A stretch of DNA of 64,000 nucleotides, taken from Herbidospora daliensis. Lineage in GTDB: Bacteria; Actinomycetota; Actinomycetes; Streptosporangiales; Streptosporangiaceae. Each line of letters begins with the position of its first letter. Position 1 is the first letter of the stretch. The stretch is taken from the NCBI RefSeq assembly GCF_001570585.1, contig NZ_BBXF01000002.1, positions 1-64,000 of the forward strand, in the 5' to 3' direction. Under the pieces are notes generated by a model that worked only from the letters and a program-made list of their open reading frames with translations, ran no database searches and had not been told where the DNA came from. The translations under genes and the position numbers were made by a program. Of the stretch, positions 5,564 through 52,018 are shown in pieces.

Positions 5564-6564
5564 AAACTGTGGCACTCCCGCGCCGGCTGCCCGCCGGGCT
5601 GAACCGCATGCCGCGCAACTACCTGCCCGTCCTGGTCACCGGGGCGCTGTTCATCGCGATGTTCACCGCCGGCGGCATCCGCTACGAGGGCTTCGCGACC
5701 GGCCAGATCATCCTGAACGTCTTCATCGACAACGCGTTCCTGCTGGTCGTGGCCGTCGGCATGACCTTCGTCATCCTCACCGGGGGCATCGACCTGTCGG
5801 TCGGCTCGGTGGTGGCGCTGACCACCATGATCGCGGCCTCCCTGCTGCCGTCGACACCGTCGTTCCTGGTGATCCTGCTGGTCCTGGCGATCGGCGGGGT
5901 GCTCGGCGCGGCGATGGGCGCGATCATCCACTACTTCGAGATCCAGCCGTTCATCGTGACCCTGGCCGGCATGTTCCTGGCCCGAGGCCTGTGCTACACG
6001 ATCGGCACCGACTCGATCCCGATCAGCGACCCCACTTTCACGGCCATCGCGCAGACGCGCATCGACCTGGCCCCCGAGTTGTGGATCTCGCCCACGGTGC
6101 TCATCGCGCTCGCGGTGGTGCTGGTGGCGACGTACACGCTGCACTACACGCGGCTGGGGAGGAACGTCTACGCGGTCGGCGGCAACGAGCAGTCGGCCCT
6201 GCTCATGGGCCTTCCGGTCGCCCGCACCAAGATCGCCGTCTACACCATCAGCGGCCTGTGCTCCGCCCTCGGCGGCCTGCTGCTGTCGTTCTACATGCTC
6301 TCGGGCTACGGCCTGCACGCCGTCGGCATGGAGCTCGACGCCATCGCGGCGGTCGTCATCGGCGGCACCCTGCTGACCGGTGGTTCGGGCTACCTGCTCG
6401 GGACGGTTCTCGGTGTGCTCGTGCTGGGCCTGATCCAGACGGTCATCAGCTTCGAGGGCACCCTCAGCTCGTGGTGGACCAAGATCGTCATCGGTCTCCT
6501 GCTCCTGGTCTTCATCCTTCTCCAACGCCTCATTGTGACGACAGGAGTCTCGCGTGAACGATGA
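5560..6564 (+). CDS. Sugar ABC transporter permease 2
   Basis: Protein of 334 residues, same RbsC-like family as the preceding gene. It contains GMTFVILTGGIDLSVGSVVALTT and IGGTLLTGGSGYLLGTVLGVL at the equivalent places. Start GTG 5560 lies in the GTGA overlap with the first permease; the end overlaps the araB start by 11 nt. It presumably pairs with permease 1 in the importer. Confidence 0.92.
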   Translation: MKTVALPRRLPAGLNRMPRNYLPVLVTGALFIAMFTAGGIRYEGFATGQIILNVFIDNAFLLVVAVGMTFVILTGGIDLSVGSVVALTTMIAASLLPSTPSFLVILLVLAIGGVLGAAMGAIIHYFEIQPFIVTLAGMFLARGLCYTIGTDSIPISDPTFTAIAQTRIDLAPELWISPTVLIALAVVLVATYTLHYTRLGRNVYAVGGNEQSALLMGLPVARTKIAVYTISGLCSALGGLLLSFYMLSGYGLHAVGMELDAIAAVVIGGTLLTGGSGYLLGTVLGVLVLGLIQTVISFEGTLSSWWTKIVIGLLLLVFILLQRLIVTTGVSRER

Positions 6565-8173
6565 CCGTTATGTGGTGGGAGTCGACTACGGCACCCTTTC
6601 CGGCCGGGCCGTCGTGGTCCGGGTCCGGGACGGGGCCGAGCTCGGCTCCGCCGTCCATGAATACGCCCAGGGGGTGATCTCCGGACCCACCCCTGACTGG
6701 GCGCTCCAGTCGCCGGAAGACTGGCGCGACGTGCTGCGCATCGCGGTGCCCAAGGCGGTCGAGGCGGCGGGGGTGGCGCCGTCGGAGGTGATCGGCGTCG
6801 CCACCGACTTCACCGCCTGCACGATCCTGCCCGCCCTGGCCGACGGCACTCCGCTCAGCGACCGCTTCCCCGACCGGCCGCACGCGTGGCCCAAGTTGTG
6901 GAAGCACCACGCCGCCCAGTCGCACGCCGACCGGATCAACGAGCTGGCCGAGGCCAGGAACGAGGCGTGGCTGCCCCGCTACGGCGGCAAGATCTCCTCG
7001 GAGTGGGCCTTCGCCAAGGGCCTCCAGCTCCTCGAAGAGGACCCGGAGCTCTACGCGCTGGCCGACCGCTGGATCGAGGCGGCCGACTGGATCATCTGGG
7101 AGCTCAGCGGCGTCGAGACCCGCAACGTCTGCACCGCCGGGTACAAGGCCATCCACCAGGACGGCGCCTACCCCTCCGAGGAGTTCCTCACCGCGCTCAA
7201 CCCCGACTTCGCCGGGTTCACCGCCAAGCTCGGCGCCGAACTCGCGCCGCTCGGCGGGCGGGCCGGGTCGCTCTCGGCCAAGGGCGCCGAGTGGACCGGG
7301 CTGCCCGAGGGCATCGCGGTCGCCGTCGGCAACGTCGACGCCCACGTGACGGCCGCCGCGGCCGACGCCGTGCGGCCCGGCCAGATGGTCGCGATCATGG
7401 GCACCTCGACGTGCCTGGTCATGAACGGCGAGACCCTCGCCGAGGTGCCGGGCATGTGCGGGGTCGTACGCGACGGGATCGTTCCAGGACTGTGGGGTTA
7501 CGAGGCCGGGCAGTCGGCCGTCGGCGACATCTTCGCCTGGTTCGTCGACAACAACGTGCCCGCGTCCTACGTGGCCGACGCCGCCGAGGCGGGCGTGTCC
7601 GTCCACGAACATCTGACGTCATTGGCGGCCGGTCAGGCCGTCGGCGCGCACGGACTGGTCGCACTCGACTGGTTCGGCGGCAACCGGTCGGTTCTCGTCG
7701 ACCACGATCTTTCGGGAGTGGTCGTGGGCCAGACGTTGTCAACCAAGCCGGAGGACGTCTACCGGGCGCTGCTGGAGTCGACCGCGTTCGGCTGCCGGGT
7801 CATCGTGGAGACCTTCGAGGCGTCCGGCGTGCCGGTCGACGAGCTCGTGGTCGCCGGCGGCCTGCTGAAGAACGCGTTCCTCATGCAGACGTACGCCGAC
7901 GTGCTGCGCAAGCCCCTGTCGGTGATCGACTCCGACCAGGGCCCGGCGCTCGGCTCGGCCATCCACGCGGCGGTGGCGGCCGGGGCCTACCCGGACATCC
8001 CCGCGGCGGCGGCGGCGATGGGCAAGCGGATCGCGGGGGCGTACACCCCCGATCCCGAGCGCGCCGCGGCCTACGACCGGCTCTACGCCGAGTACCGCAA
8101 GCTGCACGACCACTTCGCCGACGGGGCCGTGCTCCACCGGCTGCGCGCGATCCGGAACGAGGCGTCCAAGTGA
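6554..8173 (+). CDS. araB: L-ribulokinase
   Basis: Protein of 539 residues in the FGGY carbohydrate kinase family, close to the usual AraB length. The N-terminal [16 protein letters not shown] is the phosphate-binding loop. Further FGGY features are the GTSTCLVMN segment in the middle and the [19 protein letters not shown] region near the C-terminus. The GTG start at 6554 follows ACAGGAG at 6541-6547. It phosphorylates L-ribulose to L-ribulose 5-phosphate in the cytoplasm, the second step of the arabinose pathway. It is coupled to araD by a 4-nt GTGA overlap. Confidence 0.95.
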
Positions 8174-37990: not shown

Positions 37991-39217
37991 TCAGATCACT
38001 CCGTTCGTCTTCAGCTCGGCCAGCTCCTCGGCCGTGACCCCGAGCCGCGTGTAGATCTCGTGGTTGTGCTCTCCGAGCAGCGGCGGCGTCGTGATGTCGA
38101 CCGGGGAGGCGGAGAGCTGGAGGGGGCTGCCGACCGTCGAGAACTCCCCGCGCTCGGGGTGGGGGACGGTGACGACCGCGCCCTCGGCGCGCAGCGACTC
38201 GTCGTCGATGAGCTCGGCGGTGGACAGGATCGGCCCGCAGGGCACGTTGGCCGCGTTGAGCCGGTCGAGGACGGTCCATTTGTCGTGCTGGCTCGACCAC
38301 TCTTCGATCAGCTGGAACATCTTGTCGAGCTTGTTGAGCCGCGCCTCGGGGGTGGCCCACTCGGGGTCGTCGGCCAGCTCGGGGCGGCCGATGATCTCGG
38401 AGACGGGCTTCCAGCCGACGGGCTGCACGATGACGTAGATGTAGTCGTTGGGCCCGCCGGGCGCGCACCTGACCGCCCAGCCGGGCTGGCCGCCGCCGGA
38501 GGCGTTGCCCGACCGGGGCACCTCGGTGCCGAAGGTCCGGTTCGGGTATTCCTTGAGCGCGCCGTGGGCCAGCCGCTGCTGGTCGCGCAGCTTGACCCGG
38601 CACAGGTTCAGCACGGCGTGTTGCATGGCGACCTGCACCCGCTGCCCCCGGCCGGTGGACTCGCGCTGGTAGAGCGCGGCCAGGATGCCGGCGACGGCGT
38701 GGACGCCGGTGCCGGAGTCGCCGATCTGCGCGCCGGTGGCCAGCGGCGGGCCGTCTTCGAAGCCGGTGGTGGCCATCGAGCCGCCCATCGCCTGGGCGAT
38801 CACCTCGTAGGCCTTGAACTTGGCGTACTTCCCGCCGCCGAAGCCCTTGATGGACGCGTAGATGAGGCGGGGGTTGAGCTCCTGGAGCCGCTCCCAGGGG
38901 AAGCCCATGCGGTCGACCGCGCCGGGGCCGAAGTTCTCGACCAGGACGTCGGACTCCTGCACGAGCTTGACGAACAGCTCCTTGCCGCGCTCGCTCTTCA
39001 TGTTCAGCGTGATGGAGCGCTTGTTGCAGTTGAGCATCGTGAAGTAGAGGCTGTCGACGCCGGGCACGTCACGCAGTTGGCTCCGGGTGATGTCGCCGGT
39101 CGGGGCCTCCAGCTTGACGACGTCGGCGCCGAGCCACGCGAGCAGCTGCGTCGCGGACGGGCCCGACTGCACATGGGTCATGTCGAGGACGCGCACGCCC
39201 TCCAAGGCCTTGGGCAT
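37991..39217 (-). CDS. frc: Formyl-CoA:oxalate CoA-transferase (CaiB/BaiF family)
   Basis: Protein of 408 residues, family length 428. Comparison with Oxalobacter Frc from memory shows the functional residues: Gln17 in THVQSGP, Glu138 in KAYEVIAQ, nucleophile Asp167 in IGDSGTG, the glycine loop SGGGQPGW, and strong matches in SLYFTMLNCNKRSI, NFGPGAVDRMGF, NLCRVKLRDQQRL and PLLGEHN. It moves CoA from formyl-CoA to oxalate, giving oxalyl-CoA and formate. ATG 39217 begins at the family start (MPKALEGVRVLDMTHV). It is 8 nt from the decarboxylase gene and 1 nt from the ligase gene. Confidence 0.93.
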   Translation of the reverse strand: MPKALEGVRVLDMTHVQSGPSATQLLAWLGADVVKLEAPTGDITRSQLRDVPGVDSLYFTMLNCNKRSITLNMKSERGKELFVKLVQESDVLVENFGPGAVDRMGFPWERLQELNPRLIYASIKGFGGGKYAKFKAYEVIAQAMGGSMATTGFEDGPPLATGAQIGDSGTGVHAVAGILAALYQRESTGRGQRVQVAMQHAVLNLCRVKLRDQQRLAHGALKEYPNRTFGTEVPRSGNASGGGQPGWAVRCAPGGPNDYIYVIVQPVGWKPVSEIIGRPELADDPEWATPEARLNKLDKMFQLIEEWSSQHDKWTVLDRLNAANVPCGPILSTAELIDDESLRAEGAVVTVPHPERGEFSTVGSPLQLSASPVDITTPPLLGEHNHEIYTRLGVTAEELAELKTNGVI

Positions 39218-39225
39218 GCCGCTCC

Positions 39226-40908
39226 CTACTTGTACATCGTCTGGTTCATGGTCCCGGGGGCGTAGACGTCCGGGTCGACCCACACGTTGATCAGCGCGGG
39301 CTTGCCCGACTCGCGGGCGCGCTCGAGCGCCGGCCGGATGTCGGCGGGGTCACGGACCTCTTCGCCGTAGCCGCCGAGCATGCGGGCGAACTCGTCGTAG
39401 CGCACGTCGCCGAGGGTGTTGCCGACGCGGCCGCGGTCTTGGCCGTATTTGGCGGCCTGGCCGTAGCGGATCTGGTTCATCGACGAGTTGTTGCCGATGA
39501 CGCCGATGAACGGCAGGTCGAAGCGGACCATCGTCTCGAAGTCCCACCCGGTGAGGGAGAAGGCGCCGTCGCCGAACAGGCACAGCACCTCCTTGTCGGG
39601 CTCGGCGTACTTGGCGGCCATCGCGAAGGCGACGCCGACGCCGAGGGTGCCGAGGGGGCCCGGGTCCATCCAGTGGCCGGGCGACTTCGGCTGGACGACC
39701 TGGCCGGAGAAGGTGACGATGTCGCCGCCGTCGCCGATGTAGATGGTGTCTTCGGTGATGAACTCGTTGATCTCGTGGACCAGCCGGTAGGGGTCGATCG
39801 GCGCGGCCGTCGAGAGCTGGCGCGGGAGCCGCTTCTCGAACGCCTGGGTCTCGACCGCGCGCAGCTCCTCGATCCACTCCTTGCGCTTGGCGGCGCCGTT
39901 GTCTACCCGGCCGGAGGCGGCCTGCGCGGCGGCGGCCAGGATGAGCCCCGCGTCGCCGACGATGCCGAGGTCGATGTCGCGGTTCTTGCCGACGGTGCGG
40001 TAGTCGAGGTCGATCTGCACGACGTTGGCGGTGCTGGACAGCCGCTTGCCGTAGCCCATGCGGAAGTCGAACGGGGTGCCGACGATGATGATGAGGTCGG
40101 CCTCGTTGAACGCGTAGCGCCGCGAGAGCTGGAAGTGGTGGGGGTCGCCGGGCGGGAGGGTGCCGCGGCCGCTGCCGTTCATGTAGGCGGGCACGTTGAG
40201 GGCACGGACGAAGTCGATGGCGGCGTCGGTGCCGCGGGTCGTCCAGACCTGGCTGCCGAGGAGCACGCAGGGCTTCTCGGAGTGGACGAGCAGGTCGGCC
40301 AGGCGCTCGATCGCCTCGGGGTCGCCGGCCTGGCGGGTGGAGGCGCGGTAGCGGCCGGCCTGGGGGATGCGGGCCTTGGCGAGCGGGACGCTGGCGTCGA
40401 GCACGTCGCGCGGGATCTCGAGGAACGACGGGCCGGGAGCGCCGTTGTAGCACTCGCGGAACGCCATCGACACGATGTCGGCCACCCGCTCGGTCGAGGG
40501 CACCGTCGCGGCGAACTTGGTGATCGGGGTCATCATGTCGACGTGTGGCAGGTCTTGCAGTGAGCCCATCTTGTGCTGGCTCAGGGCGCCCTGGCCGCCG
40601 ATCAGCAACATCGGGCTCTCCGCGCGGAAGGCGTTGGCCACTCCCGTCACGGCGTCGGTGGTGCCGGGGCCCGCGGTGACCACGGCGCAACCGGGCTTGC
40701 CGGTGATGCGCGCGTAGCCGTCGGCCGCGTGGGCGGCGACCTGCTCGTGACGCACGTCGATCACTTCGATGCCCTCGTCGACACAGCCGTCGTAGATGTC
40801 GATGATGTGGCCGCCGCAGAGGGTGAAGATCACGTCGATCCCCTCCGCCTTGAGCGCCTTAGCGACCAGGTGACCACCGGAGATCTGTTCCGGGGCTTCT
40901 TCCGTCAT
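39226..40908 (-). CDS. ThDP-dependent decarboxylase, probable oxalyl-CoA decarboxylase of atypical subtype
   Basis: Protein of 560 residues of the acetolactate synthase/oxalyl-CoA decarboxylase superfamily: catalytic Glu55 in RHEQ, GPGTTDAVTGVANAF, and the ThDP motif GDGAFSLTGWDFETM...NNSS. Position next to frc and shared operator point to oxalyl-CoA to formyl-CoA plus CO2. However, the N-terminal IFTLCGGHIIDIYDGC resembles the ILVBL/HACL2-type 2-hydroxyacyl-CoA lyases, and the Tyr-Glu pair seen in classical Oxc (YEELDQ) is replaced by LQDLPH. It could be a distinct oxalyl-CoA decarboxylase clade or a 2-hydroxyacyl-CoA lyase using formyl-CoA. It is the first gene of the operon. Confidence 0.72.
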   Translation of the reverse strand: MTEEAPEQISGGHLVAKALKAEGIDVIFTLCGGHIIDIYDGCVDEGIEVIDVRHEQVAAHAADGYARITGKPGCAVVTAGPGTTDAVTGVANAFRAESPMLLIGGQGALSQHKMGSLQDLPHVDMMTPITKFAATVPSTERVADIVSMAFRECYNGAPGPSFLEIPRDVLDASVPLAKARIPQAGRYRASTRQAGDPEAIERLADLLVHSEKPCVLLGSQVWTTRGTDAAIDFVRALNVPAYMNGSGRGTLPPGDPHHFQLSRRYAFNEADLIIIVGTPFDFRMGYGKRLSSTANVVQIDLDYRTVGKNRDIDLGIVGDAGLILAAAAQAASGRVDNGAAKRKEWIEELRAVETQAFEKRLPRQLSTAAPIDPYRLVHEINEFITEDTIYIGDGGDIVTFSGQVVQPKSPGHWMDPGPLGTLGVGVAFAMAAKYAEPDKEVLCLFGDGAFSLTGWDFETMVRFDLPFIGVIGNNSSMNQIRYGQAAKYGQDRGRVGNTLGDVRYDEFARMLGGYGEEVRDPADIRPALERARESGKPALINVWVDPDVYAPGTMNQTMYK

Positions 40909-41038: not shown

Positions 41039-42232
41039 TTACCGCGCGGGCAGCGCGAGGAGCTCCACCGGGCCGCCCTCCCACCCGGGCGGGATCACGG
41101 CCAGGGCGTCGGCCATCGCCGCGCCGCGCAGCGACCCGGGCTGGTCGTGGCCCACGGCGATGGCGCCGCGCGCCGATCTCCAGACGGGCACCAGGCGGGT
41201 GTCGCGCGGATGGGCGCGCACCGGCCCGGTGATCGCGCTGAGTTCGCCCTCGGGTTCGGGCCGCCCGTCGAGCGCGCGCAGCACCGGCGCCAGCAGCGTC
41301 AGCGCCGCCGCCAGGGCGGCGAACGGATTGCCGGGCAGCCCGACCACCAGCCGCCCGCCCGGGAGCCGGGCGAGCGCCTGCGGGTGGCCGGGCCGCACCG
41401 CGACGCCGTCGACCAGGACCGCCGCGCCGAGCCGGCCGAGCACCCCGCGCAGGTGATCGGCCGGGCCCTTCGACGACGCGCCGCAGACCACGACGACGTC
41501 GGCCCCCGGTTCCCCCAGCGCGGCCTCCAGCACCTCGGCGCCGTCGGGCAGGTGACGCGGCGGCAGCGCCTCGCCGTCGGCCCAGGCGATCAGCGGAGCC
41601 AGCATCGGCCCGACCGCGTCGCGCACCAGCCCGGCCCCGGGAACGCCCGAACTGATCACCTCGTCGCCGGTGACCAGCACCGACACGACCGGCCTCGGCC
41701 GCACCCACAGGGTGTCGTGGCCGAGCCCGGCGGCCAGCCCGAGCACGGCCGGCGTCACCAACGCCCCCGAGGTCAGCACGACCTCGCCCTCGGACACGTT
41801 CTCCCCCCGCCGCCTGATGTGGCGGCCCGGCTCACAGCGCCCGTCGATCGACAGCCCGGCCTGTTTCGTCTTCTCGTACGGCACCACGCAGACGGCCCCC
41901 AACGGCACGGGCGCCCCCGTGGCGATCTCCACGGCCTCGCCCGGCCCCAGTTCCCGCGGGAACGGGACGCCCCCGGCGAGCACGTCGCCGACCACGTGCC
42001 ACGGGCCGGGGCCGGCGACCGCGTAACCGTCCATCGCCGCGACGTCGGCGCCCGGCAGGGCGACGAGCGCACGCAGCGCGGCGGCCAGCCGGCGGCCGTG
42101 GGCTGCCCGCAGCGGGACCTCGGCGGCGACCAGCGGCAACGTCGCCGCGGCGGCCATCCGGCGGGCTCGATCCCAGGGCAGGTCGGCTGGCCCGGCGGCG
42201 GATTCGGGCCGGGTATGCGACAGCACGGTCAT
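41039..42232 (-). CDS. moeA: Molybdopterin molybdenumtransferase
   Basis: Protein of 397 residues. MoeA features: AAMDGYAV, GEAVEIATGAPVP, RRRGENV, VLVTGDE and CGASSKGPADHL, then GLPGNPFAALAA. It inserts molybdate into adenylylated molybdopterin. AAGGAGGT precedes ATG 42232. It is divergent from the panE-like gene with an operator between them, and the molybdenum formate dehydrogenase lies just beyond, so this copy is probably dedicated to supplying cofactor when that enzyme is induced. Other cofactor genes are not in the window. Confidence 0.92.
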   Translation of the reverse strand: MTVLSHTRPESAAGPADLPWDRARRMAAAATLPLVAAEVPLRAAHGRRLAAALRALVALPGADVAAMDGYAVAGPGPWHVVGDVLAGGVPFPRELGPGEAVEIATGAPVPLGAVCVVPYEKTKQAGLSIDGRCEPGRHIRRRGENVSEGEVVLTSGALVTPAVLGLAAGLGHDTLWVRPRPVVSVLVTGDEVISSGVPGAGLVRDAVGPMLAPLIAWADGEALPPRHLPDGAEVLEAALGEPGADVVVVCGASSKGPADHLRGVLGRLGAAVLVDGVAVRPGHPQALARLPGGRLVVGLPGNPFAALAAALTLLAPVLRALDGRPEPEGELSAITGPVRAHPRDTRLVPVWRSARGAIAVGHDQPGSLRGAAMADALAVIPPGWEGGPVELLALPAR

Positions 42233-42260
42233 CGGTCGACCTCCTTGACGACACCGTTGC

Positions 42261-42278
42261 CATACCGTATACCGAATG
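42261..42278. promoter_or_regulatory. Island operator site 4 (moeA/panE-like divergent promoters)
   Basis: CATAC-C-GTATA (42261-42271) has one mismatch from consensus and runs into an overlapping TATAC-C-GAATG (42268-42278), a degenerate second copy. It lies midway between two divergent starts. Confidence 0.72.
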
Positions 42279-42305
42279 CACTGTCGACGCGAGAACGGAG
42301 CTAGT

Positions 42306-43289
42306 GTGAAGGTCGCTGTTCTTGGCGCCGGCGCCATCGGCGCGTATGTGGGGGCCGCCCTACATCGCGCCGGCGTCGAGGTGCATCTGATAGCCCGCGG
42401 GGAGCATCTCGCGGCCATGCGGAAGTCAGGCGTGCGTGTGCTCAGCCCGCGCGGCGACTTCACCGCCCACCCGCACACCACCGACGATCCCGGCGAGGTC
42501 GGCCCCGTCGACCACGTCTTCCTCGGCCTGAAGGCCAACTCCTACGCCGCGGCCGGTCGGATGATCGCGCCGATGCTCCACGAGTCCACGACTCTCATCG
42601 CCGCCCAGAACGGCATCCCGTGGTGGTACTTCCACCGCCTCGGCGGCCCTTACGACGGCTACCGCATCGAGAGCGTCGACCCCGGCGGCTCGGTGACCGA
42701 GGCGCTCCCCCTGGAGCGCGCCATCGGCTGCGTCGTCTACGCCGCCACCGAGATCGAGGCCCCCGGCGTGATCCGCCACCTCGAAGGAACCCGCTTCTCC
42801 ATCGGCGAGCCCAGCGGCGAGTTGTCGCCCAGGTGCGCCGAGTTCAGCGACGCCATGGTCGCCGGCGACCTCAAATGCCCGGTCGAGGCCGATCTGCGCC
42901 AGGACATCTGGGTCAAGCTGATGGGCAACGTCGCGTTCAACCCGATCAGCGCGCTCGCCCGCGCGACCATGGCGGGCATCTGCCGCCACACCGGCGCCCG
43001 TGAGCTGGTCAGAACCATGATGGAAGAGACGGTCGCGGTCGCCCGTGCGGTCGGCTGCGACCCCCACATCTCGATCGAGCGGCGGCTCGCCGGGGCCGAG
43101 AAGGCCGGCGAGCACAAGACGTCCACGCTCCAGGACCTGGAAAAGGGCAAGCCGCTCGAACTCGACGTGCTGCTCTCGGCGGTGGTCGAGCTGGCCGGCC
43201 TGACCGAGACCCCGGTGCCCACGCTCCGGGCCATCTACGCCGTCACCGATCTCCTCGACACCCAGACCCGGCTTGTTGGCGCCGCATGA
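42306..43289 (+). CDS. PanE/ApbA-family reductase, candidate oxalyl-CoA reductase
   Basis: Protein of 327 residues. N-terminal NADP-binding domain (KVAVLGAGAIGAYVGAALHRAG), then VFLGLKANSY and a C-terminal helical domain with WVKLMGNVAFNPISALARATMAGI, whose Lys and Asn are the ketopantoate reductase catalytic residues. GTG 42306 follows GGAG. Ordinary PanE makes pantoate, but in Methylobacterium a PanE paralogue (PanE2) was identified as the NADPH-dependent oxalyl-CoA reductase giving glyoxylate. Location in an oxalate/formate island, under the island operator, makes that role attractive here. It stands just before the formate dehydrogenase operon. Confidence 0.85.
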   Translation: MKVAVLGAGAIGAYVGAALHRAGVEVHLIARGEHLAAMRKSGVRVLSPRGDFTAHPHTTDDPGEVGPVDHVFLGLKANSYAAAGRMIAPMLHESTTLIAAQNGIPWWYFHRLGGPYDGYRIESVDPGGSVTEALPLERAIGCVVYAATEIEAPGVIRHLEGTRFSIGEPSGELSPRCAEFSDAMVAGDLKCPVEADLRQDIWVKLMGNVAFNPISALARATMAGICRHTGARELVRTMMEETVAVARAVGCDPHISIERRLAGAEKAGEHKTSTLQDLEKGKPLELDVLLSAVVELAGLTETPVPTLRAIYAVTDLLDTQTRLVGAA

Positions 43290-43319: not shown

Positions 43320-43335
43320 CGAAAGGATGAGGTCG

Positions 43336-45261
43336 ATGAAGAGGAAGAAGGCCGAGCACTACGACCGGCTGACCCATCCCCTGGTGCGCGAGAACGGTGT
43401 GCTGCGGCGGGCCACCTGGGATGAGGCGCTCGACCGGGCGGCCGAGGGTTTCCGGCGCAACGTCGCGGCCCACGGGCCCGACGCGTTCGCCATGTTGTCG
43501 TGCGCCCGGTCGACCAACGAGATGAACTACATCGGGCAGAAGTTCACCCGCGTGGTCATCGGCACCAACAACGTCGACTCGTGCAACCGCACCTGCCACG
43601 CCCCGAGCGTGGCCGGCCTGTCGGCCGTCTTCGGCAGCGGCGGCGGCACCTCCTCCTACCAGGAGGTCGAAGAGGCCGACGTGATCCTGATGTGGGGCTC
43701 GGCGGCCCGCAACGCCCACCCCATCTTCTTCCAGCACGTCCTCAAGGGCATCCGCAAGGGCGCCAAGATGTTCGCCGTCGACCCCCGCCGGACCGGCACC
43801 GCCCAGTGGGCCGACCGCTGGCTGGGCCTCAACGTCGGCACCGACATCCCACTCGCCCACGCCGTGGCGCGCGAGATCATCCACGCGGGGCTCCACAACA
43901 CCACCTTCATCGAGCGCGCCACCGAGGGCTTCGCCGAATACGCCGCCAGCGTCGAACCGTGGACGTTGTCGGCGGCCGAGCAGGTCACCGGCGTGCCCGC
44001 CGAGGCGATCCGCGAGATGGCCCACGCCTACGCCCGCGCCGACCGCGCGCAGCTGGTCTGGACCCTCGGCATCACCGAGCACCACAACGCCACCGACAAC
44101 GTGCGCGCCCTCATCAACCTGTCCCTGCTGACCGGCCACGTCGGCCGCTACGGCTCGGGCCTGTCGCCGCTGCGCGGCCAGAACAACGTGCAGGGCGGCG
44201 GCGACATGGGCGCCATCCCCAACCGGCTCCCCGGTTTCCAAGACATCCTCGACCCCGCGATCCGGGCCCGCTTCGAGGCGGCGTGGCAGGTGCCCATCCA
44301 GCCCCGCTACGGCCTCAACCTGACCGAGATGCTCGAGGCCATGGCCGAGGGCGAGGTCACCACCTGCTACCTGATCGGCGAGAACCCGGTCCAGTCCGAG
44401 GCCGACTCGCTGAGCTGCATCAAACGGCTCAGCATGCTCGACCACCTCGTCGTCCAGGACATCTTCCTGACCAAGACGGCCCAGATGGCCGACGTGGTGC
44501 TGCCCGCCGGGGCGGCCTGGTGCGAGTCCGACGGCACCTTCACCAACAGCGAGCGCCGCGTCCAGCGGGTGCGTGCCGCGCTGGTGCCGCCGGGCGAGGC
44601 CCGCGACGACATCTGGATCCTGTGTGAGCTGGCCCGCCGGCTCGGCCACGAATGGAAGTACGACGGCTCGGAAGAGGTCTGGGACGAACTGCGTTCGGTC
44701 TCGCCCGCCCACTACGGCATGACCTACGAGCGGCTGGCCGAACACCAGGGCATCCAGTGGCCGTGCCCCTCGACCGAGGAGCTCGAACCGCCGTTCCTCC
44801 ACGGCCGGTTGTGGGAGACCGACCCGGAGAAACGCGGCCGCCTGGCGCCGTTCGCGATCCTGCGCCACTCACCACCGGTCGACCTGCTCGACGACGAATA
44901 CCCGCTCCGGCTCACCACCGGCCGCCGCCTCGACTCCTACAACACAGGGGTGCAGAGCTCCGGCTTCGCCTCCCCGCTGCGGCGCGGCGAGAACATCGAG
45001 TTGTCCCCCGAAGACGCCGCGAGCCTGGGCGTCTCCGCGGGCGAGGAGGTCCGCATCTCCTCACGGCGGGGCACCGTCGTGGCCCCCGTCTACATCGACC
45101 CGGCGCTGCGTCCCGGCCTTGTCTTCATGACGATGCACTTCCCCGACGAGGTCGACACCAACGCCCTGACGATCGAGGCGACCTGCCCGATCGCCGGGAC
45201 CGCGGAGTTCAAGGCCGCGGCGGTGCGCATCGACCGTCTTGTTCCCGCGAAGGCCGGGTGA
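43336..45261 (+). CDS. Formate dehydrogenase molybdopterin subunit, catalytic part lacking the N-terminal [4Fe-4S] domain
   Basis: Protein of 641 residues matching the bis-MGD-binding part of FdhF/FdsA. It begins at RLTHPLVRENGVLRRATWDEAL, which normally follows about 50 residues of [4Fe-4S] domain plus, in NAD-linked enzymes, further Fe-S domains. Cys87 in NRTCHAPSVAGL replaces the Sec/Cys that binds Mo; MGD-binding segments VDPRRTGTAQWADRWLGL and LRGQNNVQGGGDMG and the C-terminal MTMHFPD...TNALT are present. The missing domain is found at the end of the protein at 47128-47994. ATG 43336 follows GGATGAGG. It oxidises formate to CO2. Confidence 0.9.
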   Translation: MKRKKAEHYDRLTHPLVRENGVLRRATWDEALDRAAEGFRRNVAAHGPDAFAMLSCARSTNEMNYIGQKFTRVVIGTNNVDSCNRTCHAPSVAGLSAVFGSGGGTSSYQEVEEADVILMWGSAARNAHPIFFQHVLKGIRKGAKMFAVDPRRTGTAQWADRWLGLNVGTDIPLAHAVAREIIHAGLHNTTFIERATEGFAEYAASVEPWTLSAAEQVTGVPAEAIREMAHAYARADRAQLVWTLGITEHHNATDNVRALINLSLLTGHVGRYGSGLSPLRGQNNVQGGGDMGAIPNRLPGFQDILDPAIRARFEAAWQVPIQPRYGLNLTEMLEAMAEGEVTTCYLIGENPVQSEADSLSCIKRLSMLDHLVVQDIFLTKTAQMADVVLPAGAAWCESDGTFTNSERRVQRVRAALVPPGEARDDIWILCELARRLGHEWKYDGSEEVWDELRSVSPAHYGMTYERLAEHQGIQWPCPSTEELEPPFLHGRLWETDPEKRGRLAPFAILRHSPPVDLLDDEYPLRLTTGRRLDSYNTGVQSSGFASPLRRGENIELSPEDAASLGVSAGEEVRISSRRGTVVAPVYIDPALRPGLVFMTMHFPDEVDTNALTIEATCPIAGTAEFKAAAVRIDRLVPAKAG

Positions 45262-45268
45262 CCGACGC

Positions 45269-47131
45269 ATGGATCTTCGGTTCCGCGACGCCGAACCGAC
45301 CGCCGAGGAGCGCGCCGCAGTCGACGCGCTCCTCGGAGCGCCGTCGTCCGCCTGGGACGGCGGCGACCGCACCGAGTTCGACCTGCGGTTCGCCACGCAG
45401 GCCCCCCGGGTCGCCCGCGACCGCCGCGACCTGCTGCTGCCCGCCCTCCACGCGGTCAACGACCGGGTGGGCTGGATCAGCGAGGGCACGCTCGACTACA
45501 TCTGCCGCCGCCTGACCATCCCGCCCGCCGAGGCCTATTCGGTGGCGACCTTCTACTCGCTGTTCTCCGTCAAGCCCCGCCAGGCCCGGGTGCTCCACGT
45601 CTGCACCGACCTCGCGTGCGCCGCCAAGGGCGCCGAGGCGGTCCGCCGCGACGTCGAGGAGCGCTTCGGCCCTCCCGGGGTGTCGTGGCAGCCGAGCCCG
45701 TGCCTGGGCCTGTGCGAACGCGCCCCGGCCGCCCTGGCGATCGAGGCGGGCGATCCCCCGGTCAACGCGGTCTACGGGCCGTGCTCCGTCGGGCAAGACT
45801 GGCCGGCCACGACCGAGGAGCCTCCGGTCGAGGCCGCGGTGCCGCAGACCCGGCCGCGCCGCGACGAAGCATCGGTCTCGGATGACGGCGGCGGGTCCGG
45901 GCCCGACGGTCTGGTCCTGCTCCGGCGCATCGGCGTCGTCGATCCCCTGAGCCTCGACGACTACCGGGCCACCGGCGGCTACACCGGCTTACGCCGGGCC
46001 TTCGAGCTCGGCCCCACCGGGGTCATCCGCGAGGTCCTGGAGTCGGGGCTGGTCGGGCGCGGCGGCGCGGCCTTTCCCACCGGCCGCAAGTGGGAGGCGA
46101 CCGCCCGCCAGCTCGACCGTCCCCACTACCTCGTCTGCAACGCCGACGAGAGCGAGCCGGGCACCTTCAAAGACCGGGTCCTGATGGAGGGCGACCCGTT
46201 CGCCCTGATCGAGGCCATGACCATCGCGGGCTACGCCAACGGCTGCGCCCTCGGCTACCTCTATCTCCGGGGCGAATACCCGCGTGCGCTTCGGCGGCTG
46301 GAGAACGCGATCACCGTCGCGCGGTCGCGGGGGCTGCTCGGCGACGACATCCTCGGCCAGGGATTCTCGTTCGACATCGAGATCCGGCGCGGCGCCGGGG
46401 CCTACATCTGCGGCGAGGAGACCGCGATCTTCAACTCGATCGAGGGGTTCCGGGGCGAGCCGCGCACCAAGCCCCCGTTCCCGGTGGAGAAGGGCCTGTT
46501 CGGCAAGCCCACGGTCGTCAACAACGTCGAGACCCTGGTCAACGTGCCCCACATCCTCGAGATGGGCGCCGCCGCCTACGCGGCCGTCGGCACCTCGTCG
46601 TCGACCGGCACCAAGTTGTTCTGCGTCTCGGGCACGGTCGAGCGGCCGGGCATCTACGAGGTCCCGTTCGGCGCCACCCTGCGCGACCTGCTCGACCTCG
46701 CCGGCGGCGCGACCGGTGAGCTCCGGGCGGTCCTGCTCGGCGGCGCGGCCGGGGCGTTCGTCAGGGCCGACGAGCTCGACATCCCGCTGACGTTCGAGGG
46801 CACCCGCGCCGCCGGGGCCACCCTCGGTTCCGGGGTGGTGCTGGTGCTGAACGACACCGTCGAGCTGCCCGGCGTGCTGCTGCGCATCGCCGAGTTCTTC
46901 CGCGACGAGTCGTGCGGCCAGTGTGTGCCCTGCCGGGTCGGCACGGTCCGCCAGGAGGAGGCCCTCCACCGGCTCTCCAAGCGGCGTGACGAGGGTGATC
47001 TGGTGCTGCTGCGCGAGGTGGGCCAGGCCATGCGCGACGCCTCGATCTGCGGCCTGGGCCAGACCGCCTGGAACGCCGTCGAATCGGCCATCGACCGGCT
47101 TGGTGTGTTCACCGCTAAGGAGAGCTCATGA
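45269..47131 (+). CDS. Formate dehydrogenase NAD-reducing diaphorase subunit (NuoE-NuoF fusion)
   Basis: Protein of 620 residues. The first 160 form a NuoE-like thioredoxin fold with [2Fe-2S] ligands Cys112, Cys117, Cys145 and Cys149. After an acidic linker (about 185-215) comes NuoF: FMN/NAD loop GRGGAAFPTGRKW, ESEPGTFKDR, GAYICGEETA, and the [4Fe-4S] motif SCGQCVPCR with a last Cys in SICGLG. The FdsG and FdsB roles are thus fused, as in HoxF. It receives electrons from the Fe-S subunit and reduces NAD+. It lies between the two halves of the catalytic subunit and overlaps the next gene by 4 nt. Confidence 0.92.
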   Translation: MDLRFRDAEPTAEERAAVDALLGAPSSAWDGGDRTEFDLRFATQAPRVARDRRDLLLPALHAVNDRVGWISEGTLDYICRRLTIPPAEAYSVATFYSLFSVKPRQARVLHVCTDLACAAKGAEAVRRDVEERFGPPGVSWQPSPCLGLCERAPAALAIEAGDPPVNAVYGPCSVGQDWPATTEEPPVEAAVPQTRPRRDEASVSDDGGGSGPDGLVLLRRIGVVDPLSLDDYRATGGYTGLRRAFELGPTGVIREVLESGLVGRGGAAFPTGRKWEATARQLDRPHYLVCNADESEPGTFKDRVLMEGDPFALIEAMTIAGYANGCALGYLYLRGEYPRALRRLENAITVARSRGLLGDDILGQGFSFDIEIRRGAGAYICGEETAIFNSIEGFRGEPRTKPPFPVEKGLFGKPTVVNNVETLVNVPHILEMGAAAYAAVGTSSSTGTKLFCVSGTVERPGIYEVPFGATLRDLLDLAGGATGELRAVLLGGAAGAFVRADELDIPLTFEGTRAAGATLGSGVVLVLNDTVELPGVLLRIAEFFRDESCGQCVPCRVGTVRQEEALHRLSKRRDEGDLVLLREVGQAMRDASICGLGQTAWNAVESAIDRLGVFTAKESS

Positions 47132-47994
47132 GCGTCCCCCTGCGTCCGCCACGGCGGCTCATCGAGATCACCGTCGACGGCGAGGCGATGCGCGTCCCCG
47201 AAGGCGACACCCTGCTCGACGCCTGCCAGACGGCCGGGAAGGACATCCCGACCCTCTGTTACGGCGACACCCTCAACCCGAAGAACGCCTGCCGGGTCTG
47301 CGTCGTCGAGGTCGAGGGCGCCCGCACCCTCGCCCCGGCGTGCTCCCGCAAGGCCGAGCCCGGCATGGTGGTGAAGACCGATTCCGACCGGGCCCGCCAC
47401 AGCCGCAAGGTGGTGCTGGAGCTGCTCGGCTCCTCGGTCGACCTGTCGACCACGCCGAACGCCAAGGAGTGGATGGCCGAATACGGCGCCGACCCGGCCC
47501 GCTTCGGCGAAGACGCCGCGACCGTCGCCGAGCCCCCGAAGGTCGACAACGACCTCTACGTGCGCGACTACGCGAAGTGCATCCTGTGCTACAAGTGCGT
47601 CGACGCGTGCGGCGAGCAGTGGCAGAACTCCTTCGCCATCTCGGTCGCCGGGCGCGGCTTCGACGCCACGATCTCGACCGAGTTCGACGCCCCGCTGACC
47701 GACTCGGCCTGCGTGTTCTGCGGCAACTGCGTCGAGGTCTGCCCGACGGGGGCCCTGTCGTTCAAGAACGAGTTCGACATGCGCGAGGCCGGCACCTGGG
47801 CCGAAGACCGCCAGACCCAGACCACCACGATCTGCAGCTACTGCGGCGTGGGCTGCAACCTGACCCTCCACGTGCAGGACAACACGATCGTGAAGGTCAC
47901 CTCACCCCACGACAACCCGGTGACCCACGGCAACCTGTGCATCAAGGGGCGGTTCGGCTTCCAGCACGTCCAGAACGTGGCCTCCGATGGCTGA
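47128..47994 (+). CDS. Formate dehydrogenase Fe-S subunit carrying the missing N-terminal domain of the catalytic subunit
   Basis: Protein of 288 residues. Residues 10-90 are a [2Fe-2S] ferredoxin domain (Cys44, 55, 58, 72); 140-210 hold two [4Fe-4S] clusters (Cys151, 154, 157, 161 and Cys195, 198, 201, 205); 230-285 are the [4Fe-4S] domain that normally opens the molybdopterin subunit (CSYCGVGC, Cys236, 239, 243, then NLCIKGRFGF with Cys271). It stops just where the catalytic subunit at 43336 begins in homologous full-length FdsA proteins. AAGGAGA precedes ATG 47128. The electron path from Mo to FMN must therefore cross a polypeptide boundary. Confidence 0.92.
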   Translation: MSVPLRPPRRLIEITVDGEAMRVPEGDTLLDACQTAGKDIPTLCYGDTLNPKNACRVCVVEVEGARTLAPACSRKAEPGMVVKTDSDRARHSRKVVLELLGSSVDLSTTPNAKEWMAEYGADPARFGEDAATVAEPPKVDNDLYVRDYAKCILCYKCVDACGEQWQNSFAISVAGRGFDATISTEFDAPLTDSACVFCGNCVEVCPTGALSFKNEFDMREAGTWAEDRQTQTTTICSYCGVGCNLTLHVQDNTIVKVTSPHDNPVTHGNLCIKGRFGFQHVQNVASDG

Positions 47995-48020
47995 GCCGCC
48001 GACCCCCTCCGCCGACAGGA

Positions 48021-48037
48021 AGGCGGCCAAGCCGCCT
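48021..48037 (+). other. Short hairpin between the Fe-S subunit gene and fdhD
   Basis: AGGCGGC and GCCGCCT form a 7-bp stem with a 3-nt loop. It lies in the 86-nt gap before fdhD without a U tract; it may stabilise the upstream mRNA end or attenuate fdhD. Confidence 0.45.
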
Positions 48038-48080
48038 GACGGCACCTGGCTCGCGTCACGGGTCCCGGCGGGGTGGCGGC

Positions 48081-48911
48081 GTGGGTAGGGTCACCGTGCA
48101 GCGGCGCATATTGCGGATCCGGGAGGCCGGGCCGAGTCACCGGGTCGACTCGCTGGCCGCCGAGGAGCCGCTGGAGATCCGGCTCAACGGCAAGCCGCTC
48201 ACCATCACGATGCGCACCCCCGGCGACGACTTCGACCTGGCGGCCGGGTTCCTCGTCAGCGAGGGCGTCATCGGCGAGGCGGGCGACATCGAGGCCATCC
48301 GCTACTGCGCGGGGGCCCTGGAGAACGGCCTGAACACCTACAACGTGCTCGACGTGCGGCTCACGACGGGCGTGAACCCGCCGGCCACCTCGCTGGAGCG
48401 CAACTTCTACACGACCTCGTCGTGCGGGGTCTGCGGGAAGGCCTCGCTCGACGCGGTCCGGACCGTCGCGCGGTGGGAGGTGGCCCCCGACGACGTCACC
48501 TTCTCCGAGGAGGTCATCGCCGAGTTGCCCGAGAGGCTGCGTACCGCCCAGAAGGTGTTCGACCGGACCGGCGGCCTGCACGCCGCCGGGCTGTTCACGC
48601 CGAGCGGGCGGGCGCTGGCGGTCAGGGAGGACGTCGGGCGGCACAACGCGGTCGACAAGCTCGTCGGGTGGGCGCTGCGCGACGGCCGGCTGCCCCTTCG
48701 GCAAACGGCGCTCATGGTGTCGGGCAGGGCCTCGTTCGAACTCGTCCAGAAGGCCGTCATGGCGGGCGTTCCGGTGCTGGCAGCGGTGTCGGCGCCGTCA
48801 AGCTTGGCGGTGGAACTGGCCGCCGAGTCCGGGTTGACCCTGCTCGGGTTCGTGCGTGGCCGGTCCATGAACGTCTACTCCGGAGAGGAGCGGATCAGCG
48901 CGTCATCATGA
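48081..48911 (+). CDS. fdhD: Formate dehydrogenase accessory sulfurtransferase
   Basis: Protein of 276 residues. The active-site motif SSCGVCGKASLD holds the two Cys used to pass sulfur from a desulfurase to the molybdenum cofactor; PLEIRLNGKP, TPGDDFDLAAGFLVSEG and VREDVGRHNAVDKL are further FdhD features. The sulfo ligand on Mo is essential for formate dehydrogenase activity. GTG 48081 gives the usual N-terminus; no strong ribosome site is seen. It is the last gene of the formate dehydrogenase operon. Confidence 0.93.
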   Translation: MGRVTVQRRILRIREAGPSHRVDSLAAEEPLEIRLNGKPLTITMRTPGDDFDLAAGFLVSEGVIGEAGDIEAIRYCAGALENGLNTYNVLDVRLTTGVNPPATSLERNFYTTSSCGVCGKASLDAVRTVARWEVAPDDVTFSEEVIAELPERLRTAQKVFDRTGGLHAAGLFTPSGRALAVREDVGRHNAVDKLVGWALRDGRLPLRQTALMVSGRASFELVQKAVMAGVPVLAAVSAPSSLAVELAAESGLTLLGFVRGRSMNVYSGEERISASS

Positions 48912-50212: not shown

Positions 50213-52018
50213 ATGCGGACATATATGGTCGTCGGCCTCGGATTCGGGCTGGCGCTGATCACCGGGTCGGCGGCCTTCGCCGACTCGGCGGATAGAGAGC
50301 ACGGCCACCAAGCCGTGAAGGACCGGCACCACAAGCACGTACAGGAGAACAAGCAGCACGGGCGCCCGACCGTGCACCGTGACCACACACGGGACCGGCG
50401 CCCGGTTGCCACCCGCGCCCACGGCACGGCCGAACGACGCTCGACCGCGACCCTCGGCACCGCCGCCACGACGAACCGGCAGGCGGCCCGCACGGGCGCC
50501 CAGCGCCGCGCGCTCCACGACGCGACGGCCAACCGCGCGGCCCTGCTCGCCGCGCACCAACGGGCGAACCAGGCCGCCATGCACCAGCGCCAACGCGCGA
50601 CTTCGGCCGCCGGGCACCAGCACGCCGCCCTGAACGCGGCCACCGCCCGCGCCTTCACCCGCCTGGCCGGCCAGCAGACGACGACACAACGACGCGCGGC
50701 CCCGAACACGACGACGGGCCGCACCATCAGCGGCGCGGCCGTCCAGCGCGCCGCCTACGGGCGCGCGGTCCACGCCCAGGCGAACCACCGGCGCTCGGCG
50801 GACATCCGCAGACACCCCGACGGCCGCCGGCACATGCGCTTCCACTACGCCGACCGCCCGGAGATGCGCGCCCGCCACCATGAAGGGGACCGCGAGCGAC
50901 ATCACGACGGCGACCGCCCACACGACCACGCCCGCCACCACGACATGCAGAACAGGCACCACGACGGCCACGACGGGCAAGGCCGGCATCACGAAGGGCA
51001 GCGCGACGCTTTCGGCAGGCACCACGACTCACACGACAGGCGCCACGACCTGCCCAACGGCCATCACCACGACCACGGCCGCCAGCACGACATGCGCGGC
51101 GACCACGACGGGCACCGCGGCCACCACGACGGGCCACGCAACACGCCCGGCAGGCACCACGACTCACACGACAGACAGCACGACCTGCGCAACGGCCACC
51201 ACGACGCAGACGGCCGTCGCAACGGCCACCATGAAGCACACGGCCGCCACCACGACGCACACGGCCGTCACCACGACCACCCCGTCGCCCATCACGGTCA
51301 CGCCAACGCGCACGCCCACCACGCCGCTCATCACGCCGTCCACCACGGCACGCACCACGCCCGCCCGGCCGCCCACCAGCGCCACCAGCGCCCCCGCCGT
51401 CCCGAGGTCATGAAGTTCGGGGACAAGAGTCACCAGATCCGCGCCATGAAACAGCGCCTGCGGCAGCTCGGTTTCGACTCCGGCGTCGACGACGGCCGTT
51501 ACGGCGAGACGACCCGTTACGCCGTCTGGGCCTTCCAGAAGGTCAACGGCCTCCGGATGACCAACCGCATCGACCGGGACACCATGTGGGCGCTGCACCA
51601 CCCGCGCCGCGTCAAGCCGCTGGTCCGGCCGAAGCTCACCAACCGGGTCGAGATCGACGTCCGGCGGCAGCTGATGACCATCTGGCGTGACGGCAAGCCC
51701 GATCTCACGACCCACATCTCCACGGGCGCGAACCGGTCGTACTGCGACAACGGGCACTGCGGTTTCGCCCGCACCCCCGCGGGCGACTTCCGGGCGGGGA
51801 CGCGGGCGCCGGGCTGGACGACGAGTCCGCTTGGCACGATGTTCAACTCGATCTACTTCAACGGCGGCATCGCCATGCACGGATCCTCGGAGGTACCGAA
51901 ATATCCGGCCTCACACGGATGCATCCGGATTCCGATCCACACCTCGAAGATCATCTACGCCATGGTCACCGCGGGCGAACCGGTGCACGTCCGTGGCGCG
52001 CAGAGCAAGTACACCTAA
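50213..52018 (+). CDS. L,D-transpeptidase with a long His-rich region
   Basis: Protein of 601 residues: signal peptide (1-24, AFA-D), an Ala/Thr/Arg/His region (25-210), an extremely His-rich region (about 210-395) built on HHD, HDG, RHH and DSHDR motifs, a peptidoglycan-binding domain (400-465; GDKSHQIRAMKQRLRQLGF), and a YkuD transpeptidase domain (480-595) with HGSSEVPKYPASHGC, catalytic Cys570. The transpeptidase forms 3-3 crosslinks in peptidoglycan. The His tract could bind Zn, Ni or Cu or form a pH-sensitive linker. No strong ribosome site precedes ATG 50213. Confidence 0.88.
   Translation: MRTYMVVGLGFGLALITGSAAFADSADREHGHQAVKDRHHKHVQENKQHGRPTVHRDHTRDRRPVATRAHGTAERRSTATLGTAATTNRQAARTGAQRRALHDATANRAALLAAHQRANQAAMHQRQRATSAAGHQHAALNAATARAFTRLAGQQTTTQRRAAPNTTTGRTISGAAVQRAAYGRAVHAQANHRRSADIRRHPDGRRHMRFHYADRPEMRARHHEGDRERHHDGDRPHDHARHHDMQNRHHDGHDGQGRHHEGQRDAFGRHHDSHDRRHDLPNGHHHDHGRQHDMRGDHDGHRGHHDGPRNTPGRHHDSHDRQHDLRNGHHDADGRRNGHHEAHGRHHDAHGRHHDHPVAHHGHANAHAHHAAHHAVHHGTHHARPAAHQRHQRPRRPEVMKFGDKSHQIRAMKQRLRQLGFDSGVDDGRYGETTRYAVWAFQKVNGLRMTNRIDRDTMWALHHPRRVKPLVRPKLTNRVEIDVRRQLMTIWRDGKPDLTTHISTGANRSYCDNGHCGFARTPAGDFRAGTRAPGWTTSPLGTMFNSIYFNGGIAMHGSSEVPKYPASHGCIRIPIHTSKIIYAMVTAGEPVHVRGAQSKYT

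Follow-up and report, generated by a model that had tools for sequence, protein, structure and literature searches.

A probable NAD+-dependent molybdenum formate dehydrogenase of Herbidospora daliensis with its catalytic subunit encoded as two chains in rotated gene order

Introduction

In Methylorubrum extorquens FDH1 (7vw6, 8j83) the catalytic alpha subunit is one chain of ∼990 aa, and in the FdsABGD enzymes of Rhodobacter capsulatus and Cupriavidus it is again one chain, FdsA, so that in both (7vw6 for FDH1, 6tg9 for FdsA) the Mo site and the first cluster meet in one folding unit. Here we describe a locus of the actinomycete Herbidospora daliensis that very probably encodes an NAD+-dependent Mo formate dehydrogenase whose alpha subunit is permanently two chains. 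It lies within the 64 000-nt stretch that we analysed (the window: positions 1 to 64 000 of contig NZ_BBXF01000002.1, assembly GCF_001570585.1), where the gene for the C-terminal half (the MoCo, or molybdenum cofactor, chain; alpha-C) comes first, followed by a NuoE–NuoF fusion gene (NuoEF) and then by the gene for the N-terminal half (the FeS, or iron–sulfur, chain; alpha-N).

FDH1 is the top fold match of both halves, at 31–37% identity over them, and its beta subunit is a NuoE–NuoF fusion as well. Of the proteins with a solved structure, the short FdhF proteins (Thermoanaerobacter kivui HDCR FdhF, 7qv7; methanogen FdhA, 7bkb; Escherichia coli FDH-H, 1aa6) come nearest to the MoCo chain in sequence; unlike the split enzyme they are without a NuoG-like ferredoxin part, the MoCo matches start at chain residue 58–63, and a single chain holds both the Fe4S4 domain and the Mo domains. 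Formylmethanofuran dehydrogenase spreads a Mo/W-bisPGD (bis-pyranopterin guanine dinucleotide) catalytic subunit over two chains, FwdB and FwdD, but there the separate chain is the C-terminal dinucleotide-binding domain, not the Fe4S4 domain. According to PMC13397495, FdsA is a single chain that holds four [4Fe-4S] clusters and one [2Fe-2S] cluster, one [4Fe-4S] more than we read in the split enzyme. The FeS and MoCo chains map serially onto FdsA.

A two-gene alpha subunit has been described for the NADP-dependent enzyme of Moorella thermoacetica (PMC13040438, accessible text). Because the excerpt of PMC5736913 calls this enzyme selenocysteine-containing, and because intact selenocysteine (Sec) relatives look alike in our data, the two genes are probably one gene divided by its Sec codon, whereas the Herbidospora locus is a true split with rotated order. 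None of the titles and abstract openings listed by our searches of an open-access library describes a formate dehydrogenase split at the Fe4S4/Mo boundary; subscription papers and preprints were outside these searches.

Results and discussion

Division of the alpha subunit

The features of the split enzyme in the window are as follows (bis-MGD, bis-molybdopterin guanine dinucleotide).

43336..45261, plus strand: MoCo chain (alpha-C), 641 aa; formate dehydrogenase-type bis-MGD domains without the Fe4S4 domain
43594..43596, plus strand: codon of MoCo-chain Cys87, predicted Mo ligand in DSCNRT-C-HAPS
45269..47131, plus strand: NuoE–NuoF fusion (diaphorase subunit), 620 aa; PF01257, PF01512, PF10531, PF10589
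47128..47994, plus strand: FeS chain (alpha-N), 288 aa; [2Fe-2S], two ferredoxin-type [4Fe-4S], Mo-proximal Fe4S4 domain
47821..47976, plus strand: Fe4S4 domain, FeS-chain residues 232–283 with Cys236, 239, 243, 271 and Lys273

The FeS gene start overlaps the NuoEF stop (ATGA). A Pfam search of the MoCo chain placed PF00384 at residues 11–434 and PF01568 at 524–628 with no other match; PF04879 was not found there, so that the chain departs from the Fds/FDH1 kind, in which the Fe4S4 domain is on the same chain. The FeS chain carries PF13510 at 10–86, Fer4 models at about 145–210 and, at its C-terminus, PF04879 at 232–283 (model positions 4–55 of 55). The NCBIfam Fdh-alpha model TIGR01591 (672 positions) is shared out between the two, positions 1–50 matching the FeS chain and 49–672 the MoCo chain, and R. 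capsulatus FdsA (6tg9_A) is covered serially and without a gap, residues 24–302 by the FeS chain and 303–931 by the MoCo chain. With PF00384 and PF01568, Cys/Sec–His and Arg-Gly-Gln/His at the active site, and a NuoE/NuoF-like diaphorase in the operon, the locus has the marks of an NAD+-dependent Mo/W formate dehydrogenase.

A preliminary description, made from the sequence of the window, had read a Mo protein without a [4Fe-4S] domain at 43336, a protein at 47128 that ends with the Mo-proximal motif behind ferredoxin domains, and a NuoE–NuoF fusion between them, and had concluded that the alpha subunit is divided at the [4Fe-4S]/Mo boundary with the cluster on another chain. The domain matches and the complementary coverage of TIGR01591 and of Rhodobacter FdsA, an alignment that it had itself proposed, bear this out, as do the stop positions, upstream sequences and selection reported below. 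Its claim that the joined halves make an ordinary FdsA holds as far as the serial cover of 6tg9_A goes, but not for an absent HxxxCxxC motif, the fusion of NuoE with NuoF, or the MoCo chain, which by sequence is nearer to short FdhF. Likewise, what it called a circular permutation is a rotation of gene order and not of a polypeptide.

At the junction, the FeS chain ends in KGRFGFQHVQNVASDG before its stop codon and the MoCo chain begins with MKRKKAEHYDRLTHPLVR, starting 10 residues before RLT; the intact relative L109 has a matching, uninterrupted stretch of 21 residues, so that little or nothing was lost at the split and each end bears a few residues of its own. Another in-frame ATG is present at 43327, ahead of the MoCo chain. 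In a set of 149 loci with an FeS chain >55% identical to that of the window (124 distinct sequences, some loci being one gene taken twice), the chain always stops 4–45 residues past KGR[FY]G, and in 120 of them 4–12 residues past it. All 149 FeS chains contain the motif CxxCxxxC...CxKG, while none of the 109 loci in which the MoCo start is covered has this pattern in frame ahead of that chain.

The preliminary description had allowed for an intact alpha subunit elsewhere in the genome that replaces the split one. An intact paralog does exist, but it is distant, its parts being 34–38% identical to the window proteins.

C2:259510-261765 (L198 6923-9766): intact FdhA paralog in the same genome, 991-aa frame

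In this paralog the loop directly behind the site equivalent to the split is longer by ∼60 residues, so this loop tolerates large changes.

Clusters

The cysteines of the FeS chain fall into sets at 44, 55, 58 and 72; at 151, 154, 157, 161, 195, 198, 201 and 205; and at 236, 239, 243 and 271, which from knowledge of the family we take to bind a [2Fe-2S] cluster (44–72), two ferredoxin-type [4Fe-4S] clusters (151–205) and the Mo-proximal [4Fe-4S] cluster (236–271). In an alignment of 69 rows these cysteines are invariant except Cys161 (≥90% conserved), and Lys273 is conserved in ≥90%. The HxxxCxxC motif, which marks a fourth [4Fe-4S] cluster in the N-terminal part of FdsA, is in 22 of the 69 rows (19 intact sequences from the phylum and three Fds-type) and in none of the 44 split and three FDH1-type rows. 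Two FDH1-type operons, from Methylobacterium and Azospirillum (L204, L205), resemble the split enzyme in this absence but have the order NuoEF then FdhA, with a single 1.7-kb ‘subunit E’ gene ahead of fdhF. Two other operons, L202 and L203, are FdsA-like and have NuoE and NuoF as separate genes, unlike the fusion at split loci.

Distribution and conservation

The split form is widespread in Actinomycetota, a spread about which the preliminary description had asked. By our count, 53 of 150 genomes of the order, the window's own among them, have a MoCo chain, and precisely these 53 also have an FeS chain; an FeS chain of the split type is present in 41 of 396 genomes of the phylum sample, in 14 family groups. 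Both genome counts are lower bounds, since for each genome just the best candidates were scored. Identity to the window proteins in the order sample is 71–100% for the MoCo chain and, over the listed pieces, 69–100% for the FeS chain. The two chains are both present or both absent in 149 of the 150 genomes; the exception, G066, holds a decayed FeS relic (L206 7641-8015) consisting of the last NuoEF residues and ∼75 FeS codons with one cluster Cys lost. Two genomes of the window's own genus (G029 and G097) had neither chain in the order-genome search.

The order MoCo>NuoEF>FeS was found in 108 of the 121 loci longer than 4000 bases with an FeS chain >55% identical; 12 show NuoEF>FeS only, all cut by a contig end, and one (L170) is aberrant. 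Of 20 phylum loci examined, 19 have the same order and the remaining one (L083) stops inside NuoEF at a contig end. Two genomes with such a cut NuoEF>FeS locus, G012 and G040, carry the MoCo gene on a separate contig. A scan of species genomes returned at least 553 relatives; the best 80 of the 553 are all from Actinomycetota (45 Streptomyces, 18 Nonomuraea), and the closest named records among them are from Herbidospora, with FeS chains 93–99% identical. No relative of the split enzyme was found in the viral collection. In the plasmid collection 341 records match, all at <60% identity, and the four examined are intact.

Purifying selection acts on all three genes: dN/dS was 0.05–0.28 in 18 of 18 values, from the three genes compared with six relatives, some over part of NuoEF. 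An insertion of ∼24 residues between the [2Fe-2S] and ferredoxin parts is seen in the FeS chains of L037, L039–L042 and L045–L047 and of many phylum loci. A suspected second break, within the FeS gene of genus g7 (‘one TAG/TAA inside’), proved to be the normal gene end in the four plus-strand loci read, L019, L023, L027 and L028.

Active site and selenocysteine

The MoCo chains carry DSCNRT[C/TGA]H in all 108 cases (Cys–His in 88, TGA–His in 20) and RG[QH]NN in all 108 (104 by pattern, the other four by reading), in agreement with the CH RGQ/H motif given for formate dehydrogenases in the available part of PMC8808070. Comparison of 37 split loci showed the Mo-ligand codon to be TGC in 19 and TGA (selenocysteine) in 18, so the split exists in both Cys and Sec forms. 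Seventeen of the TGA loci are phylum loci that lie outside the class, and the eighteenth is L039 (Allonocardiopsis). SelB was over the cut-off in all nine tested genomes with the TGA form. L039 and L201 come from one genome (G080, with SelB over the cut-off; Allonocardiopsis opalescens, record L180) and place the TGA form inside the window's family group, the other 17 order loci having Cys. The window's genome also has a SelB (G000:C5:329535-330542), despite its Cys-form split enzyme.

Sec-type FdhA operons of the arrangement NuoE–NuoF–FdhA in other Actinomycetota (L098, L100–L105) are 39–45% identical to both halves with Sec at the same place, but they encode an intact chain with an in-frame TGA, and the NuoEF-like genes precede FdhA. 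Phylum matches with frames of 350–400 aa, considered as additional splits, are such intact FdhA genes, in which the Sec codon is an in-frame TGA.

Predicted structure and mechanism

Each half is predicted to fold alone. AlphaFold2 models of the single chains have a mean pLDDT (predicted local distance difference test) of 90 for the FeS chain and 84 for the MoCo chain; the best fold matches are, for the FeS chain, the M. extorquens FDH1 alpha subunit (8j83_A) and then NiFe-hydrogenase HydA, and for the MoCo chain the same FDH1 subunit (7vw6_A, TMq 0.88) and then E. coli FDH-H. We infer formate as the substrate from the family, the motifs, the adjacent fdhD and a nearby formyl-CoA transferase gene; that the chains assemble into one complex with NAD+ as acceptor is likewise suggested by the sequences, as is the electron path. 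The MoCo chain would bind bis-MGD and oxidize formate at Mo–Cys87, and the FeS chain, with the Mo-proximal [4Fe-4S] cluster, two more [4Fe-4S] clusters and one [2Fe-2S] cluster, would pass the electrons to the NuoE–NuoF fusion, which would reduce NAD+. Since the Mo cofactor and the first cluster are on separate chains, the first electron-transfer step, from the pterin to Lys273 and the [4Fe-4S] cluster, would cross a non-covalent interface. The simplest mechanism, by analogy, would thus be that of FDH1 and FdsABG with the pterin–Lys273–[4Fe-4S] step taking place between two proteins.

That the split has a function, and is more than a neutral relic, is conceivable but doubtful: the cluster-free MoCo chain might be made, loaded with Mo and sulfurated alone and dock reversibly on the FeS–NuoEF module, which, if true, would place the transfer from pterin to cluster between two proteins of a formate dehydrogenase and make it controllable. 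With the split clade, nature offers a system whose Mo domain and first electron acceptor may be made separately, mixed and exchanged, which bears on cofactor insertion as well as on the electron-transfer step; it also marks a cut site tolerated in nature that may be useful for engineering. For annotation it carries a warning, as neither half alone reaches the TIGR01591 cut-off of 666.25 bits (the FeS chain scores 50.5).

Origin of the split

In a tree of both halves with 30 split and 24 intact rows, as in a second with 25 and 19, the split rows lie on one side of a branch with an SH-aLRT (Shimodaira–Hasegawa-like approximate likelihood ratio test) support of 100, the rows having been hand-picked from the available loci. 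Among the sequences compared, the split therefore appears to have arisen once, at the loop after the Fe4S4 domain. The order NuoEF>FdhA is found in all 20 phylum loci of the distant class (L099 and L106 being cut by a contig end and L107 without Cys/Sec) and in four plasmid operons, and FdhA>NuoEF in two intact paralogs, L198 from the window's genome and L200 from a relative. If FeS, MoCo and NuoEF are set on a circle, these two orders and the split order are mutual rotations; the mirror order was not seen among the loci compared. Were a NuoEF–FdhA operon duplicated in tandem and the two outer ends then lost, MoCo>NuoEF>FeS would result, a route for which the loci contain no intermediate of duplication and trimming and which is itself inferred.

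Alternative explanations

The sequence evidence confirms the finding and supports its interpretation as a split, yet several points weigh against an enzyme with a permanently two-chain alpha subunit derived by fission of an FdsA-like gene. One locus, L170 (Streptomyces sp. B-S-A6, 6054-7846), is truncated: the first 306 MoCo residues run into the last NuoEF residues, followed by the FeS gene, which is either an internal deletion or an assembly collapse. SelB was over the cut-off in one of five Cys-form genomes, the window's own, and the MoCo chain alone, at 641.8 bits, falls slightly short of the Fdh-alpha cut-off. A long branch (1.24 changes per site) leads to the split clade; FDH1-type sequences join as its sister in a quick tree with a support of 17, while an Fds-type or a phylum-intact sister is not rejected (approximately unbiased test, P = 0.79 and 0.72), and genome searches within the phylum found no direct intact ancestor or nearest intact relative. 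The closest solved relatives of the MoCo chain by sequence are the short FdhF proteins without a ferredoxin part (7qv7, 7bkb, 9t1s and 1aa6, ahead of FDH1 and FdsA), whereas the FeS chain is closest to FDH1, so the ancestor may have been something other than a strict FdsA, and the split form may have arisen otherwise than by fission of an FdsA-like gene.

The draft genome consists of 18 contigs, and a normal FdhA gene could in principle have been broken or rearranged by sequencing, assembly or annotation. Such an artefact, which the preliminary description had itself raised as a threat, has practically no chance given that 108 of 121 loci share this order and split site, among them loci of the one- or two-contig genomes G090, G084 and G110 (L031, L032 and L048), and that all three genes are under purifying selection. 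We consider it extremely improbable that the alpha chain is in reality a single polypeptide produced by read-through, frameshifting or protein trans-splicing. An in-frame Sec TGA does make one gene look like two in related intact enzymes, and the two-gene Moorella alpha subunit in the accessible text of PMC13040438 could be cited in favour, though we take it as a Sec-codon effect. At the split loci, however, the gene for the downstream half comes first and is separated by NuoEF from that for the other half, an order in which ribosomes could not join the halves as in FdhA; Sec or frameshift read-through is thereby excluded as the cause of the split. For trans-splicing, the FeS tail of 4–45 residues (4–12 in 120 of 149 loci) and the lead of 10 residues in the MoCo chain of the window are too short, since split-intein halves are longer than either.

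A wider role is also to be weighed, in which the FeS chain and NuoEF form a general NADH-linked electron module with the MoCo chain as one of several catalytic partners. The FeS chain does resemble the N-termini of HydA, HoxU and NuoG, its second-best fold match is a hydrogenase subunit, and separate chains would permit partner exchange, but we regard this as unlikely in view of the joint presence or absence of the two chains in 149 of 150 genomes, their common operon, and a C-terminal Fe4S4 domain of the Mo-bisPGD kind. Less likely still is a Mo enzyme of the same split architecture that acts on a substrate other than formate. The sub-threshold Fdh-alpha score and an unexplained ketopantoate-reductase-like neighbour would fit it, whereas the conserved CH/RGQ active-site motif, the adjacent FdhD, the Sec variants and the formyl-CoA transferase nearby speak for a formate dehydrogenase.

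Neighbouring genes

The three plus-strand genes of the split enzyme are flanked by the ketopantoate-reductase-like gene and fdhD, and further genes of possible relevance lie upstream.

48081..48911, plus strand: fdhD, sulfurtransferase for formate dehydrogenases; NF001943 397 bits (cut-off 269); the GTG start is our own reading
42276..43289, plus strand: ketopantoate-reductase-like gene (PF02558/PF08546), adjoining the operon, role unexplained
41042..42238, minus strand: MoeA-like molybdopterin molybdotransferase, scoring below curated cut-offs
37994..39214, minus strand: formyl-CoA:oxalate CoA-transferase (frc); TIGR03253 656 bits (cut-off 504)

An fdhD homolog is present 3′ of the FeS gene in all 20 order loci. 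The ketopantoate-reductase-like gene has a homolog close to the split operon in 17 of the 20 order loci examined and in 66 of the 80 best named loci, and in none of 18 split loci outside the class. The frc product is a possible source of formate. Adjoining frc is a thiamine diphosphate (ThDP) enzyme (39229-40908, minus strand) that scores 244 bits with the oxalyl-CoA decarboxylase (oxc) model and is nearer to acetolactate synthase-like and 2-hydroxyacyl-CoA lyase models; it is possibly an unnamed oxalyl-CoA decarboxylase or lyase. Because its score is far under the oxalyl-CoA decarboxylase cut-off of 739, the link of formate to oxalate is weaker than it first looked. Counts of frc and oxc neighbours are underestimates, as many loci end before those genes. 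An open reading frame of 33 codons (MAEPPTPS..., 47987-48088) reaches from within the end of the FeS gene into the start of fdhD. Further downstream, 50213-52018 encodes a His-rich protein, with weak NCBIfam matches, whose C-terminus we read as peptidoglycan-binding and L,D-transpeptidase-like.

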